From: Helicobacter sp.
GTDB lineage: Bacteria > Campylobacterota > Campylobacteria > Campylobacterales > Helicobacteraceae
Assembly (NCBI GenBank): GCA_029264655.1
Contig: JARHZY010000049.1
Location: 1 to 36,742, forward strand
Length of the DNA: 36,742 nucleotides
Reading direction: 5' to 3'
A model generated the notes under the pieces. It did no database searches, had not been told where the DNA came from, and saw only the letters and a program-made list of their open reading frames with translations. The translations under genes and the position numbers were made by a program. Shown here piece after piece: positions 5,626-11,929 of this stretch; position 1 is the stretch's first letter; every line of letters starts with the position of its first letter.

Positions 5626-6159
5626 TTAGGCGTGTATAATCTCAAGAATCTTGTGTTTATTGTAATCAAATTCATCTTTTGTAAGTTCAAAGAAGTAATC
5701 CATTTCACACTCCCTTACAATACGTGCCCCATAGGCTTTATGAAATTGTATTACTTTTTTGTTTGCCTTACGCACTTCAAAATGATTTACATGGAAACCT
5801 AAAATATGGTATGCATAATTTTTTAACAAATATTCTCCTTCTAGCGATTGTGCAATATTTGCTTCATTGGACATAAGCCAGCTGCCAGCCTCAAACCTAG
5901 TGCCACAAACATTATAGATTCTAATTGTGCCAAGTGCTTTGCCTACTTTATCTTCTACAATAAAATACCATTCATCTTTTTTATGAAAATAGTTTGCAAT
6001 ATATCGTTGTTGCAAGCTCACATCATTTTTAGTGGGATTAAGGTATTTTGCCTTTGGGCTACAACGCAATGCCACTACAAATGCAGCATCATTTAAGGTA
6101 ATTTCACGAAGATTGACATATTTTCCTTGCAATGCTTCTTGTTGGATAATTTTTGCCAT
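5626..6159 (-). CDS. GNAT-family (RimJ/RimL-like) N-acetyltransferase
   Basis: YVNLREITLNDAAFVVALR...YFIVEDKVGKALGTIRIYNV...FHKAYGARIV; only 21 nt from the upstream SDR gene. Confidence 0.8.
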   Translation of the reverse strand: MAKIIQQEALQGKYVNLREITLNDAAFVVALRCSPKAKYLNPTKNDVSLQQRYIANYFHKKDEWYFIVEDKVGKALGTIRIYNVCGTRFEAGSWLMSNEANIAQSLEGEYLLKNYAYHILGFHVNHFEVRKANKKVIQFHKAYGARIVRECEMDYFFELTKDEFDYNKHKILEIIHA

Positions 6160-6180
6160 TTAAATCCTTTTATGAGGTTA

Positions 6181-6951
6181 TTATAAACTCCCGCCACCAT
6201 CAATTACAATATTTTGTCCTGTAATCCAGCTGCTAGATATACTCAAAAGAAAGCACACAAGAGGTGTAATGTTTTCTACCTTGCCTATGCCTAGTGGATA
6301 CTCACTTGTGATTTTATCTATAAATTCTTTATCATAAACTTTACTCCAAGATTCTATCATTTCTGTCATTACAAAACCCGGACTAACAGCATTGATGCGG
6401 TATTTTGGTGCAATTTCTAAGGCAATCGATCTTATTGCTGCATTTATTCCTGCTTTTGTGGCAGCATAATTGCTTAATCCTTTTTGTGCTTTCACGCTTG
6501 CATTTGAGCTTATCCACACAAAAGAAGCTCCGTGTATGCTTTTGGCTCTTTTATCAAGCAATCCTTTTAGAATCTGTAAGTTTCCAAAGTAATTGACATG
6601 AAAAATTGCAGTAGCAGTTTCCACAGACAGCACCGATGAAATCGGTGCTATCTGCTGGACTCCAGCAGATAGCACTGCTCCATCAAAGCTACCATATTTT
6701 TTAGCAAGATTCAAAGTCCATTTATCAAGCCCTTCGAATATGCCAATATCTTTTATAACAGGGATAAAATATTCTTTATGAGATGCCATTGCTTTTTTTG
6801 CTTCTAATTTTTCTATATTTCTACCAATTGCAATAACTTCAGCACCTAAAGCATTAAGCTCTAAAGCGATAGCCGCACCTATACCACTACTTGCACCTGT
6901 AATAAGAAAACGTTTGTTTGTGAAGTAGTCTTTACGAAATAATGTTTGCAT
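6181..6951 (-). CDS. SDR family oxidoreductase (FabG-like)
   Basis: FLITGASSGIGAAIALEL (TGxxxGIG), YAATKAG (YxxxK), C-terminal SSWITGQNIVIDGGGSL. Confidence 0.92.
   Translation of the reverse strand: MQTLFRKDYFTNKRFLITGASSGIGAAIALELNALGAEVIAIGRNIEKLEAKKAMASHKEYFIPVIKDIGIFEGLDKWTLNLAKKYGSFDGAVLSAGVQQIAPISSVLSVETATAIFHVNYFGNLQILKGLLDKRAKSIHGASFVWISSNASVKAQKGLSNYAATKAGINAAIRSIALEIAPKYRINAVSPGFVMTEMIESWSKVYDKEFIDKITSEYPLGIGKVENITPLVCFLLSISSSWITGQNIVIDGGGSL
6629..6675. repeat. Two overlapping perfect hairpins inside the SDR CDS
   Basis: AGCACCGAT-GAA-ATCGGTGCT (6629-6649) and GTGCTATCTGCTGG-ACT-CCAGCAGATAGCAC (6645-6675), read directly. Confidence 0.9.
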
Positions 6952-6955
6952 ATTC

Positions 6956-7183
6956 TTACTCTAACCTATCTTTTGCTAGATTAATTAAGTCGGCTATGCT
7001 TTGGCATTGTTTAAGTATGCCACCTGTAAGTTGAATGTGCAACAAATTATCATAAAGAGAGATGAGTGAAATAATTGCTAAGCTATCCCACTCTTCAATA
7101 GAATCCAAACGCATATCAAGATGTAATGGCTCATCTCTTTGTATCGCATCGGCAATATGTTGCAAAAGTTCTGTTTGTGTCAT
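6956..7183 (-). CDS. Acyl carrier protein
   Basis: 75 aa with SIEEWDSLAIISL (DSL 4'-phosphopantetheine attachment motif). Confidence 0.85.
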   Translation of the reverse strand: MTQTELLQHIADAIQRDEPLHLDMRLDSIEEWDSLAIISLISLYDNLLHIQLTGGILKQCQSIADLINLAKDRLE

Positions 7184-7398
7184 TTGTATTTCTCCTTAAT
7201 TGTGGTGAATTTTGCTTTTGAGATGCAAGGTAAAAAGTTATATCTAGAGTTGCTAGATTCTAGGTGTTTTAAGGCTTTGAGATGAATTTGTGGATTGTGC
7301 CAACTTTTTGTGCTAATGTGCATTAAACAAGAAAAAAGCAAACCCGCACAAGATTTTCTTAATACTAAATATTCCAAAAAAATAATATAGTTATTCAT
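7180..7398 (-). CDS. Small protein of unknown function inside the acyl operon
   Basis: 72 aa; start overlaps the upstream KAS III stop (ATGAATAA) and stop overlaps the downstream ACP start (ATGA). No family recognised. Confidence 0.45.
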   Translation of the reverse strand: MNNYIIFLEYLVLRKSCAGLLFSCLMHISTKSWHNPQIHLKALKHLESSNSRYNFLPCISKAKFTTIKEKYK

Positions 7399-8722
7399 AA
7401 ATCTCTACCTTTTGGCATTGAAAGCCTCTATCTAATATGAGCACAGCATTACCCCATGTAAGCCCCGCTCCAAATCCAGCCAAATGCACCTTTAGTGGTT
7501 GTTCTAGCCCGTTGTGAGCAAGCGGGGCTAGAGTGTCGCATATTGTCGCTGGGATAGAGCAACCACTAAGATTCCCGTATTTGTTAGTCGTGGTGTTTGG
7601 CACTTTATCTGTATCAAGTTTCAGTCGTCTTGCGATATTATCAACAATATATTTATTTGCCTGATGGAAGAAAAAGTAATCAATGTTTGTTTTATCGCAT
7701 TGTGCATATTCCATAATTGTATGAAAGGTTTTTGGATATTGCATAATTGCGAAGTTAAAAATCTCTGCCCCATCCATATACAAGTCTCTTAGACTTCTCA
7801 TTTCACTTGTTTGCCACACCTTAGAATCTGTGATAATGTCTTTTGTAGGGATTCTGCATGCACCTTCTGGAATAATGAGTTGATAGAACTTAGAACCATC
7901 GCTGCCTAACTCAAAATAGGCTTTTTGTATTTGCTTTGTATTGAATGCTTGATTTTCTTTTATATTATTAAAGCTTTTAGATTCTATTGCATTTCCTGCA
8001 AATATAGAATCAAGCACTTCATTATTTCCAAATCCCGCAACAAAACCCTGCGTATTTAAATCTTTTCTATTTTGGGAATGACTAGTTTTTGTATTCTTGC
8101 CGTTTTTTGCGGTAGAATAAGCCCTAGAATTTGCATTATGAGATTCCATAAGACTAGAATCTATGCTATTTTTATACGCAAAATCTATTCTCTCTAAAAA
8201 TGTTGCACTCACCCCATCACCAATCATAGGTGCAAGATTAGAATCTAGTGGATTCACAAACTTGCTTAAAGTATCACCAACGATAAGTAGCACGCGATTT
8301 GCAGCACCGCTATCACAAAGGCTATATGCCATATATAGCCCATAGAGATAGCCTGCACAGGCTTGATTAATATCAAAACTAAGGCAGGATTGACTTAATC
8401 CTAATTTGCCATGCAGATAGCACGCACTAGCAGGACAGAAGTAGTCGGGGCTTTGCGTTACAAAAATTAATGCATCGATACTTTCCTTTGGTATTTGCAG
8501 GGATTCTAAAAGCCTTTTGGCTGCTAGCTCACCCAAATCACTTGCAGTAATGTGTTTTTGGGCGATATGGCGAGTTTGCAAACCTATGACTTTTTTAATC
8601 CGCTCTAATGCTTTTTTATCACCTTTATAAATACTATCAAGTTCAGAATCTATATCTATGGTTTTTGGTGGAACTATGGTGCAAATACCTTTTATGCTTG
8701 CGTTACAAAAAGTTGCTTTCAT
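7391..8722 (-). CDS. 3-oxoacyl-ACP synthase III (KAS III/FabH-like) with an internal insertion
   Basis: Cys in SFDINQACAGYLYGL, His in FFFHQANKYIVDNIA, Asn in NKYGNLSGCSIPA; 443 aa with about 85 extra Ser/Asn/Lys-rich residues near 184-268. Confidence 0.92.
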   Translation of the reverse strand: MKATFCNASIKGICTIVPPKTIDIDSELDSIYKGDKKALERIKKVIGLQTRHIAQKHITASDLGELAAKRLLESLQIPKESIDALIFVTQSPDYFCPASACYLHGKLGLSQSCLSFDINQACAGYLYGLYMAYSLCDSGAANRVLLIVGDTLSKFVNPLDSNLAPMIGDGVSATFLERIDFAYKNSIDSSLMESHNANSRAYSTAKNGKNTKTSHSQNRKDLNTQGFVAGFGNNEVLDSIFAGNAIESKSFNNIKENQAFNTKQIQKAYFELGSDGSKFYQLIIPEGACRIPTKDIITDSKVWQTSEMRSLRDLYMDGAEIFNFAIMQYPKTFHTIMEYAQCDKTNIDYFFFHQANKYIVDNIARRLKLDTDKVPNTTTNKYGNLSGCSIPATICDTLAPLAHNGLEQPLKVHLAGFGAGLTWGNAVLILDRGFQCQKVEIYE

Positions 8723-8731
8723 GCTACCTCC

Positions 8732-9445
8732 TTAAGCACACAATGGCTTGTGTGTGGGGTAGTAAAAAGTGAGGATATTGCGGGATTTTGCAAAAGATTG
8801 TTTGGCGTTGAAATAAAAAGGATATTTACTTTCCCCTCCTCTTTTAGTAGCTAAATATTCTAAAAACTTCTTTTCCAGTGTAAGAACATTCCTGCTTCTT
8901 TCTAAAATTCTTTTTGCAGGATTGCCAAAGTAGATTCCAAAAGGTTTTGTAGGGCGAGCAACAAGGCTTAAAGCCCGCACACTTACTCCCTCACTTAAGC
9001 CCTTACTTGAGGGTAAAATCATACTACCAGCTCCTACAATGCAATGCTTTTGCAAGATGATTTTTGAAGTGCTAATACACTTAAAATTTGAGGGTATCAT
9101 AGGATTGGTTAGGCTTTCCCCGCTATAATCATCACTTGAAGTGAAAAGGCTTACACGTTGAGAGAGACCGCAAAAATCTTCTATCACAATACCTACTTCT
9201 CCACCAGAGAGACTAGTCCAAGCCCCTATATGGATAAAGTTACCTATTTGTATATTTCCGCTTAAAATGGCAAAATCATCAATGCGGACATAATTGCCCA
9301 CTGCTATGCGTTCTGCATGATGGAAACTTACCTTTTTTGAAATAAAAATGTTTTTTGGATTTTTTGGAATGCTTATGCCTAAGTCTATTAGTTCATTTAT
9401 AGTGTAAAATCCATTTACATCATATTTTATTTTGTTGTTTTGCAT
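8732..9445 (-). CDS. Left-handed beta-helix (hexapeptide-repeat) acyltransferase
   Basis: Hexapeptide-like repeats (FAILSGNIQIGNFIHIGAWTSL...CIVGAGSMILPSS) and C-terminal FGNPAKRI. Confidence 0.85.
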   Translation of the reverse strand: MQNNKIKYDVNGFYTINELIDLGISIPKNPKNIFISKKVSFHHAERIAVGNYVRIDDFAILSGNIQIGNFIHIGAWTSLSGGEVGIVIEDFCGLSQRVSLFTSSDDYSGESLTNPMIPSNFKCISTSKIILQKHCIVGAGSMILPSSKGLSEGVSVRALSLVARPTKPFGIYFGNPAKRILERSRNVLTLEKKFLEYLATKRGGESKYPFYFNAKQSFAKSRNILTFYYPTHKPLCA

Positions 9446-9448
9446 TTT

Positions 9449-10870
9449 TCATCCCCTCACTTTCTTAAATCTCTCACTCATATTTAAAGTTTCCACAATG
9501 CTTACTTTACTTGGAATCTTAAAAGGAGATAATCTGTTTTTACAAAAGGCTCTTATATATTTTTTTAGTTCTAGATTTGTTGATGGGGTTTGTGATAAAG
9601 ATTGTGTATGTTGTGCAGAATCTTGTAACTTAGAATCTAAAACAACCTTAACACTTACACTCTGTCCTGTGATAGCACTAGATTCCCCATATACTACACA
9701 ATCGCTTATAAATGGAATCTCTAATATTACTCCCTCAACTTCTTGGGGAATCACTTTTTCTCCACCCACATTGATAACTTCTTTTGCTCTGCCTATAATC
9801 TTTATATACTCTTCCCCGTTAAGATTCTTTACTTCTACTAAATCTCCCGTAGCAAAGTAGCCTTTATTATCAAACACGCTATTATCACTATTAAGATAAC
9901 CTAATGCATTTGTGTTAGATTTGATAAAAAGCTCATTATTGATAATCTTATAATCCATATTATCAAGACGGATAAAATTACCCCTTGTTGTGGTTTGGGT
10001 AATGCCTATTTCACTTGCCCCAAATGTTTGATGGAATCTTACTTTTGGAAATGTATTTTTTAGTTTTGTTAAAAGAGAATCTGGCATTTTTTCTGTGCCA
10101 TAAGTAATAAGTTTTAATGAGCTTAAATCATAAAGCTGTGTAGGATTTGAAAGTAAAAAGAGATGCAATAAGCTAGGGCTAGCGGGCAAAAGAGCAATAT
10201 TATAATCTTGGATATTCTTTGCAATCTCTTGCATATCTTTACGATTTTTTAGCCCAATCCCACAAGCTCCAAGACTAAGCACATTAAAAAGCGTATTTAA
10301 ACCTCCTATATGATCAAACATGAGAAATAATAAGATATTTATACATTTTGGTTTTTTTCTTAAAAAGCCTTGAAGCAGAGTATTGAGATTATGAACTATT
10401 GCTTTTGGTTTGCCTGTGCTACCACTTGAAAATAGTATCAGTCCGCTTGTATGGTTTGTCTGTAAAGAAGTGATGATTGCATGTTTTTTCTCCATGTTGT
10501 TTGTAGTATGCAAGGCATTATTATAATATAGATAGTCTATTTGCCCCTCTTTTATATAAGATTGTAAAATAAGAGAGTAGTTATTGGAATCTTGTGGTGT
10601 AAGTGAATGCGATAAAGGCACAATAATATAACACCTTTCTATACATGCTAGAAAAAATGCTATTGTGTGTAAGTCATAATCTCCAAGAATGCCAATAATA
10701 GCACCTTTTTTAATGTTATTAAGAAGAGAAGTTGCTTTGTATGTAGAATCTAAAAGCACACCATAAGTATAAGTCTTGTTATTTGCTATAAGACATATTA
10801 AATCTTTGGCGTGGCTTTGAATCTTATGCAAAAATGGGTGCGTGAAATTATGTATAGAATCGCTATGCAT
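9449..10870 (-). CDS. AMP-dependent synthetase/ligase (acyl-activating enzyme)
   Basis: LILFSSGSTGKPKAIVHN (P-loop signature), YGTEKMPDS, GYFATGDLVEV, C-terminal FKIPSKVSIVETLNMS. Confidence 0.93.
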   Translation of the reverse strand: MHSDSIHNFTHPFLHKIQSHAKDLICLIANNKTYTYGVLLDSTYKATSLLNNIKKGAIIGILGDYDLHTIAFFLACIERCYIIVPLSHSLTPQDSNNYSLILQSYIKEGQIDYLYYNNALHTTNNMEKKHAIITSLQTNHTSGLILFSSGSTGKPKAIVHNLNTLLQGFLRKKPKCINILLFLMFDHIGGLNTLFNVLSLGACGIGLKNRKDMQEIAKNIQDYNIALLPASPSLLHLFLLSNPTQLYDLSSLKLITYGTEKMPDSLLTKLKNTFPKVRFHQTFGASEIGITQTTTRGNFIRLDNMDYKIINNELFIKSNTNALGYLNSDNSVFDNKGYFATGDLVEVKNLNGEEYIKIIGRAKEVINVGGEKVIPQEVEGVILEIPFISDCVVYGESSAITGQSVSVKVVLDSKLQDSAQHTQSLSQTPSTNLELKKYIRAFCKNRLSPFKIPSKVSIVETLNMSERFKKVRG

Positions 10871-11597
10871 TTACGCCTCCTAGATAAATCACTTGAGCGG
10901 TGATAAAATCACTCTTTTCATCTAGGAAAAACTCAATGGTATTAAGCACATCTCTAAACCCACCAAAACGCTTAATGGCTTGCTGGTTTAAAAGGGCGTC
11001 CATTTTTGCTTTTGGAACATTTTTGATTAAATCTGTTGGCACAGGTGTGGGACCAACAGCGTTTATGGTGATACCAAACTCGCTTAACTCTTTAGCACAG
11101 ATTTGTGTAAGACTAACTAAGGCAGCTTTTGAGGCAGCATAGATAGCTTCACCCTCTAGCCTTAATGGTGTGGCAATTGTGGCAAAATTTACAATACGAT
11201 AAGGCATTTGCATTGTAGAATCTTTAGGGAGTTTTTTGTAATTTTGCACCATAATCTTTGCGACTTCTCGCAAAAAAAGAAAGCTACCAAATACATTGGT
11301 ATTGAAAATATTTTGCATAGTCTTTAGTGGTGTGGTAAGGATATGATTCATAGAAGCAATTCCTGCATTATTGAGTAAAATATCAATAGAACCAAACTCT
11401 TTTTTAACTGCTCTTACCATACTTACAACTGCATTTTCATCACACACATCAAGGGTGAAATGTCTGTAATTTTTATGCTCTAAATTGCTTTGCGTCCGTG
11501 AGCAGCCGCACACAATATCGCCTTTATGCAAGTAATATTCGCTTAAATCCCTGCCTATGCCCTTGCGTGTCCCTGTGATAAGTATAACTCTAGGCAT
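10863..11597 (-). CDS. SDR family oxidoreductase (FabG-like 3-oxoacyl-ACP reductase type)
   Basis: VILITGTRKGIGRDLSEYY, LLNNAGIA, YAASKAALVSLT; overlaps both neighbouring genes. Confidence 0.93.
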   Translation of the reverse strand: MPRVILITGTRKGIGRDLSEYYLHKGDIVCGCSRTQSNLEHKNYRHFTLDVCDENAVVSMVRAVKKEFGSIDILLNNAGIASMNHILTTPLKTMQNIFNTNVFGSFLFLREVAKIMVQNYKKLPKDSTMQMPYRIVNFATIATPLRLEGEAIYAASKAALVSLTQICAKELSEFGITINAVGPTPVPTDLIKNVPKAKMDALLNQQAIKRFGGFRDVLNTIEFFLDEKSDFITAQVIYLGGVNA

Positions 11598-11886
11598 TAT
11601 CTTTGCTTTTGTTTAAGATATATGTAGTAAGTGTGGCTACATCTTTAAACGGAGAGTTTCTTGCACTCATTGTTTTTTCATCCGCAAGAATAAGTTCAAT
11701 ATGGAGATTCTCTAAAAGCATTTCTTCTAAATCTGCAATAAAACTTACAAGCGCTAGAGAATCTAAATTGCCTTCAATCCCATAAATTTTTGTATCTAGT
11801 GTTGGATTTTTTAGATTTTCATTATCAAGTTCATCTGCTAAATTTTTGAGAGATGCATAAATTAATGATTGGATTTGTGTTTGCAT
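11590..11886 (-). CDS. Acyl carrier protein-like
   Basis: 98 aa with IEGNLDSLALVSFIADLEEML (DSL motif); first gene of the operon. Confidence 0.8.
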   Translation of the reverse strand: MQTQIQSLIYASLKNLADELDNENLKNPTLDTKIYGIEGNLDSLALVSFIADLEEMLLENLHIELILADEKTMSARNSPFKDVATLTTYILNKSKDNA

Positions 11887-11929
11887 TACCCTTCCTCAAT
11901 TAATACAAAATTAAATTACTAGACTTTCA

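Follow-up and report, generated by a model that had tools for sequence, protein, structure and literature searches.

We analysed a 36,742-nucleotide stretch of Helicobacter sp. DNA (GenBank assembly GCA_029264655.1, contig JARHZY010000049.1; hereafter the window), in which eight minus-strand genes, read from position 11886 down to 5626, encode in order an acyl carrier protein (ACP1), a short-chain dehydrogenase/reductase (SDR1), an AMP-forming acyl-activating enzyme (AMP-ligase), a left-handed beta-helix (LbH) acyltransferase, a 3-oxoacyl-ACP synthase III (KAS III), a second carrier (ACP2), a second reductase (SDR2) and a GNAT acyltransferase. Comparison with related genomes resolved this operon into a transferase and two acyl-donor modules that can occur separately, with ACP1, SDR1 and the AMP-ligase constituting module A, and LbH, KAS III, ACP2 and SDR2 constituting module B. 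The operon probably makes one or two kinds of short carrier-bound acyl group and adds them to an amino-deoxy sugar, acylating the free amine of its nucleotide-activated form, with the product destined for a surface glycan of this gut Helicobacter. Most likely, the cluster joins a known 3-hydroxy-acid module with a second, phylum-wide acid-loading module that is without an assigned function.

Two modules, joined and apart

Of the 51 Campylobacterota loci examined, 47 hold the complete ACP1-SDR1-AMP-ligase trio, in the same order wherever the layout was read, and two of the four incomplete loci stop at a contig edge. Relatives of the AMP-ligase were identified in 31 of 121 Helicobacteraceae genomes and 63 of 397 Campylobacterota genomes, and those of KAS III, taken at 1e-40, in 17 of the 121. 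Many module A loci show no KAS III, and in several genomes (G233, G254, G259, G134 and others) module A is accompanied by a GNAT without KAS III; at the G233 locus (L149), which is shared with H. bilis-type genomes and where its relatives also carry module B, the trio and GNAT are present and LbH, KAS III, ACP2 and SDR2 are all absent. The original prediction, made from the sequence alone, had described one pathway with one condensing enzyme; instead, the two modules are found apart in other genomes.

The modules could still act in series, such that a starter loaded onto ACP1 by the AMP-ligase is condensed by KAS III with malonyl-ACP2, reduced by SDR2, and moved as a longer hydroxyacyl group by LbH or the GNAT. 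An AMP-ligase is found in 12 of the 17 genomes with KAS III, an FkbH-cluster gene adjoins KAS III in four of the other five, and both modules here lie in a single tight gene run. FabH enzymes, however, mostly use acyl-CoA primers, and module A and a GNAT occur without KAS III in the genomes listed above. A module of the viosamine type, moreover, operates in an island that has no AMP-ligase (PMC3927599). The tie of KAS III to a starter module thus favours series and the occurrence of module A and GNAT alone favours parallel operation; overall, we consider the linear pathway rather unlikely.

A GNAT gene lies 3-77 bases from module A in 14 loci, in one of which the AMP-ligase is the only member of the trio on the contig. 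Six of these GNATs are FdhC-like, four of them accompanied by dTDP-3-amino-sugar genes (dTDP, deoxythymidine diphosphate), and eight are PseH-like and belong to pseudaminic or other nonulosonic-acid loci; the three PseH-like members checked score 68, 59 and 32 bits, all below the PseH cut-off of 93. The type of GNAT beside module A, FdhC or PseH, follows the sugar locus. We tentatively suggest that module A may be a phylum-wide acid-activating cartridge feeding one acyl-ACP to the GNATs of pseudaminic acid, legionaminic acid and 3-amino-3,6-dideoxyhexose pathways, such that a swap of transferase would move the acyl group between surface sugars, the window representing a case where the cartridge is joined to a second module. 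A second AMP-ligase in tandem was also observed in many module A loci (L171, L177, L178, L179, L182, L183, L184 and L190), mostly 39-49% identical to that of the window.

Module B has a counterpart in the viosamine island of Pseudomonas syringae, which yields 3-hydroxy-1-oxobutyl viosamine and in which a vioR mutant lacks modified viosamine (PMC3927599). KAS III, 3-oxoacyl-ACP reductase, ACP and acyltransferase genes are contiguous there, as they are at 6181-9445 of the window (vioB-vioS-acp-vioR content), although the window lacks vioA, vioM and vioT and has module A and the GNAT in addition. No VioA-like aminotransferase or glycosyltransferase was found near the operon in the window. The match in gene content, together with the placement of relatives in nonulosonic-acid and dTDP-amino-sugar loci, bears out the comparison with flagellin-glycan loci drawn in the original prediction. 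The viosamine-like gene set and the relatives in sugar loci likewise support its proposal that a short 3-hydroxyacyl-type group is handed to an acceptor, rather than built into a membrane fatty acid; as it had also stated, the operon encodes no dehydratase, enoyl reductase or thioesterase.

A counterpart of module A in gene order is reported from the group II flagellar glycosylation islands of Aeromonas, where orf1-orf2-orf3 lie downstream of pseH; these were read as fatty acid genes possibly giving a liposugar, their function being untested there (PMC7874193). Compared by listed gene order, this trio comprises an ACP, a 3-oxoacyl-ACP reductase and an AMP-dependent synthetase in the order of the window and beside a GNAT, an arrangement also seen for module A in other Campylobacterota, but luxE and luxC are nearby and a KAS III module is not reported. 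That the window operon instead serves a small fatty-acid, polyketide or signal-molecule pathway with no glycan tie would be consistent with the proximity of the Aeromonas trio to luxE and luxC (PMC7874193), and with the occurrence of KAS III, ACP and FabG-like enzymes in such pathways too. Both transferases are nonetheless similar to amino-sugar N-acyltransferases and relatives repeatedly occur in sugar loci, making such a role very improbable.

As in module B, the Campylobacter fabH2/acpP region has an NF009519 KAS III with an ACP2-like carrier after it, and genes resembling pseB and pseC are part of the locus (L078). The region differs in carrying FkbH, a further ACP and a methyltransferase-like gene upstream. 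For C. jejuni, a literature search gave no paper on the function of Cj1298-Cj1307 or fabH2. An FkbH-cluster gene also stands beside KAS III, in the usual place of module A, in several relatives (L064-L068, L078), often accompanied by an ACP of its own and a gene of the glyoxalase family; the FkbH identity derives from a family match for the Campylobacter member of the cluster.

Module genes and predicted reactions

The eight genes constitute a real, conserved operon under purifying selection. From ACP1 through KAS III adjacent genes overlap by 8 bases or sit 3-9 bases apart, and spacings of 207, 4 and 21 bases separate KAS III from ACP2, ACP2 from SDR2, and SDR2 from the GNAT, respectively. 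The G+C content of the operon (35%) slightly exceeds that of the window as a whole (32.6%). Genomes of the H. bilis type have a free-standing cassette like that of the window, with identical gene order and the GNAT last; the H. cinaedi cassette sits in a legionaminic-acid locus, among LegB, LegC, NeuD, formyltransferases, NeuB and NeuC. A limited literature search found no paper on the function of the cassette in Helicobacter. LegB was detected in 10 of 30 genomes examined, nine of them with KAS III, and in none of the 13 from the window's own genus.

This absence of Leg genes from the genus, among the genomes examined, might suggest that the operon is what remains of a legionaminic-acid locus in decay, as might the broken cassette of G239 and that of H. 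bilis 37372_8, which is split over frames. All eight window genes are, however, open, with active sites kept and dN/dS values of 0.05-0.24 against the related G234 cassette (synonymous sites being near saturation in some genes), and decay is accordingly a highly unlikely account of the operon. In H. bilis 37372_8 itself, the AMP-ligase, KAS III and SDR2 are broken across several frames (L036, L063, L090), which probably leaves the cassette without activity.

The first gene of module A, ACP1 (11590-11886; minus strand, as for all features given here), encodes 98 residues with the site GNLDSLALV, has no profile match and shows a dN/dS of 0.12; its relatives (43-84% identical) stand before SDR1 in other genomes. 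SDR1 (10863-11597) is FabG-like (Pfam adh_short 3.6e-36; top PDB matches FabG), with the motifs TGTRKGIG, NNAG and YAASK, the catalytic Ser position being Thr and the Tyr and Lys being kept. The AMP-ligase (9449-10870) matches PF00501 (1.9e-27) and PF13193 (6.3e-10) and scores under the cut-off of the MenE profile. A motif comparison in its FDHIGG region hints at a substrate other than an amino acid, although we do not count this as evidence.

Within module B, the LbH acyltransferase (8732-9445) is AntD/VioB-like, its top PDB match being 3vbi (1.3e-45), which we take to be AntD. Similarity spans the LbH domain, and the Ser and Asp varied in mutant PDB entries are conserved. AntD, cited as an anthrose N-acyltransferase, belongs to the same LbH family, but its donor is a CoA thioester, in contrast to the ACP donor predicted for the window protein. 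KAS III (7391-8722) is FabH2/VioS-like and keeps the Cys-His-Asn residues; its NF009519 score of 408 bits, under the cut-off of 436, comes from two stretches (8177-8722 and 7394-7936) split by an insertion of ~80 residues at about 7937-8176. This insertion is missing or of different length in relatives, identifying the site as one of lineage-specific inserts. ACP2 (6956-7183), found after KAS III in most relatives, falls just under the Pfam cut-off for PP-binding (0.0017; 19.0 versus 20.8), and SDR2 (6181-6951) is FabG/VioR-like (adh_short_C2 1.6e-39) with Ser-Tyr-Lys kept. Both carriers possess the DSL phosphopantetheine site and, since their profile scores are weak, were identified from this site, their length and their conserved position.

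In-frame lineage-specific inserts were also observed in the KAS III, SDR1 and AMP-ligase of relatives (L036, L062, L090). A peptide like EVSL..F.........SYL recurs in several of the inserts at H. bilis and H. labetoulli loci; it is also present in an unrelated gene and resembles Rickettsia palindromic elements.

From family membership and module context, we propose the following reaction steps. In module A, the AMP-ligase would use ATP to activate a small carboxylic acid and load it onto ACP1, where SDR1 would act on the bound acyl group, most simply converting a 3-oxo to a 3-hydroxy form. In module B, KAS III would condense a primer with malonyl-ACP2, and reduction by SDR2 would give 3-hydroxybutanoyl-ACP2 or a close homologue. 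Module A is probably served by the GNAT as its N-acyltransferase and module B by LbH, a pairing suggested by context, with the acylated amino sugar expected to end in a surface glycan. Transfer to a sugar is favoured by the nearest solved relatives of both transferases, FdhC and AntD, being amino-sugar N-acyltransferases. The identity of the acyl group as 3-hydroxybutanoyl is close to evenly balanced, leaning slightly against.

Candidate acceptor sugars

Among solved structures, the GNAT (5626-6159) most closely matches the sugar N-acyltransferase FdhC (PDB 5kta, 1.1e-17), the second-best match reaching 8e-4. FdhC and QdhC are 3-hydroxybutanoyl transferases of Fuc3N and Qui3N (PMC4869667). They resemble the window case in this closeness and in the presence of FdtA and an FdtB-like gene in the same genome, but differ in that the window GNAT lies outside a sugar locus, beside dedicated ACP-based donor genes. 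In phylogenetic reconstruction, firm support separates the cassette GNATs from PseH and places them with the GNATs of genomes that carry FdtA, although their exact position among the latter is not firm (81/67) and involves long branches. Relatives of the window GNAT were identified in 20 of the 121 Helicobacteraceae genomes, all 20 of which possess FdtA, compared to 32 of 121 overall (Fisher 6e-15, kinship not corrected for), and in several genomes the GNAT relative and FdtA are close neighbours.

Within the window's own genome, RmlA, RmlB and FdtA lie together on contig C48 and an FdtB/QdtB-like aminotransferase lies on contig C165, indicating that a dTDP-3-amino-3,6-dideoxyhexose substrate is probably made. 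The original prediction had left the acceptor unknown; the FdhC-like GNAT, FdtA and FdtB-like genes narrow it to a nucleotide-activated amino-deoxy sugar, the likeliest candidate for the GNAT being dTDP-Fuc3N or dTDP-Qui3N, an assignment that we hold to be evenly poised. Other N-acylations of dTDP-3-amino-3,6-dideoxyhexose are possible.

A number of observations weigh against this assignment and against the broader proposal of sugar acylation. The FdtA contig also holds 3-N-acetyltransferase-like and 3-N-formyltransferase-like genes, and with these likely transferases in place the GNAT does not fill a gap in the pathway. The operon (contig C176) is outside the FdtA/FdtB locus, FdtA and the FdtB-like gene are themselves on separate contigs of a genome that is 86% complete, and no sugar gene adjoins the operon in the window flanks, as the original prediction had already stated. 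For LbH, no 4-amino sugar was found as acceptor beyond the PseC product. The structure model of the GNAT, built from two sequences, has a mean pLDDT (predicted local distance difference test) of 50.8, too poor for fold comparison, and the donor acid could be other than 3-hydroxybutyrate.

A precursor of nonulosonic acid, from the pseudaminic acid pathway, was also considered as the acceptor in place of a dTDP-3-amino sugar. The cassette lies in legionaminic-acid loci of H. cinaedi and others, module A occurs in pseudaminic-acid (Pse) loci of other families, pseudaminic acid genes are present in the window's genome, and Acinetobacter is known to have 7-N-3-hydroxybutanoyl forms of both legionaminic acid (Leg) and Pse (PMC9676051). 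Conversely, the window GNAT clusters with those of FdtA-bearing genomes and not with PseH, the genome carries its own PseH, and LegB is absent from the 13 genomes of the genus that were examined, leaving a nonulosonic precursor an unlikely acceptor. Two specific candidates were rejected. The GNAT does not appear to be the pseudaminic-acid PseH of this genome, as it scores 23.7 bits against the PseH profile TIGR03585, below the equivalog cut-off of 93.1, and a PseH domain with PseG exists elsewhere in the genome. Legionaminic acid was set aside as the acceptor here on the same LegB count, although the window's genome is incomplete.

Other features and wider significance

The original prediction had counted nine minus-strand open reading frames. 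Eight correspond to the genes described above; the ninth (7180-7398; 72 residues), in the gap between KAS III and ACP2, is probably spurious, having neither a profile match nor a relative in the loci compared. A ribosome-binding-like sequence, GAGGAAGGGTA, was read directly at 11887-11900, upstream of ACP1, and a scan of the region for promoters and terminators gave matches no more frequent than in shuffles. The heptamer AGATTCT, in either orientation, was observed at 18.2 per 10 kb in the whole window versus 2.3 expected, at 20-40 per 10 kb in loci of the H. bilis and H. cinaedi group, and at ~2 in a Campylobacter locus.

How phages and immune systems see bacteria is shaped by unusual N-acyl groups carried on surface sugars, yet the origin of the acyl donors is mostly unknown. 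If correct, the proposed role of the operon would provide a testable source of acyl donors across Campylobacterota, as well as a function for the ACP-reductase-AMP-ligase trio beside the Aeromonas pse genes, so far without an assigned role. For the H. bilis group, it would further predict that Fuc3N or Qui3N is present in acylated form.

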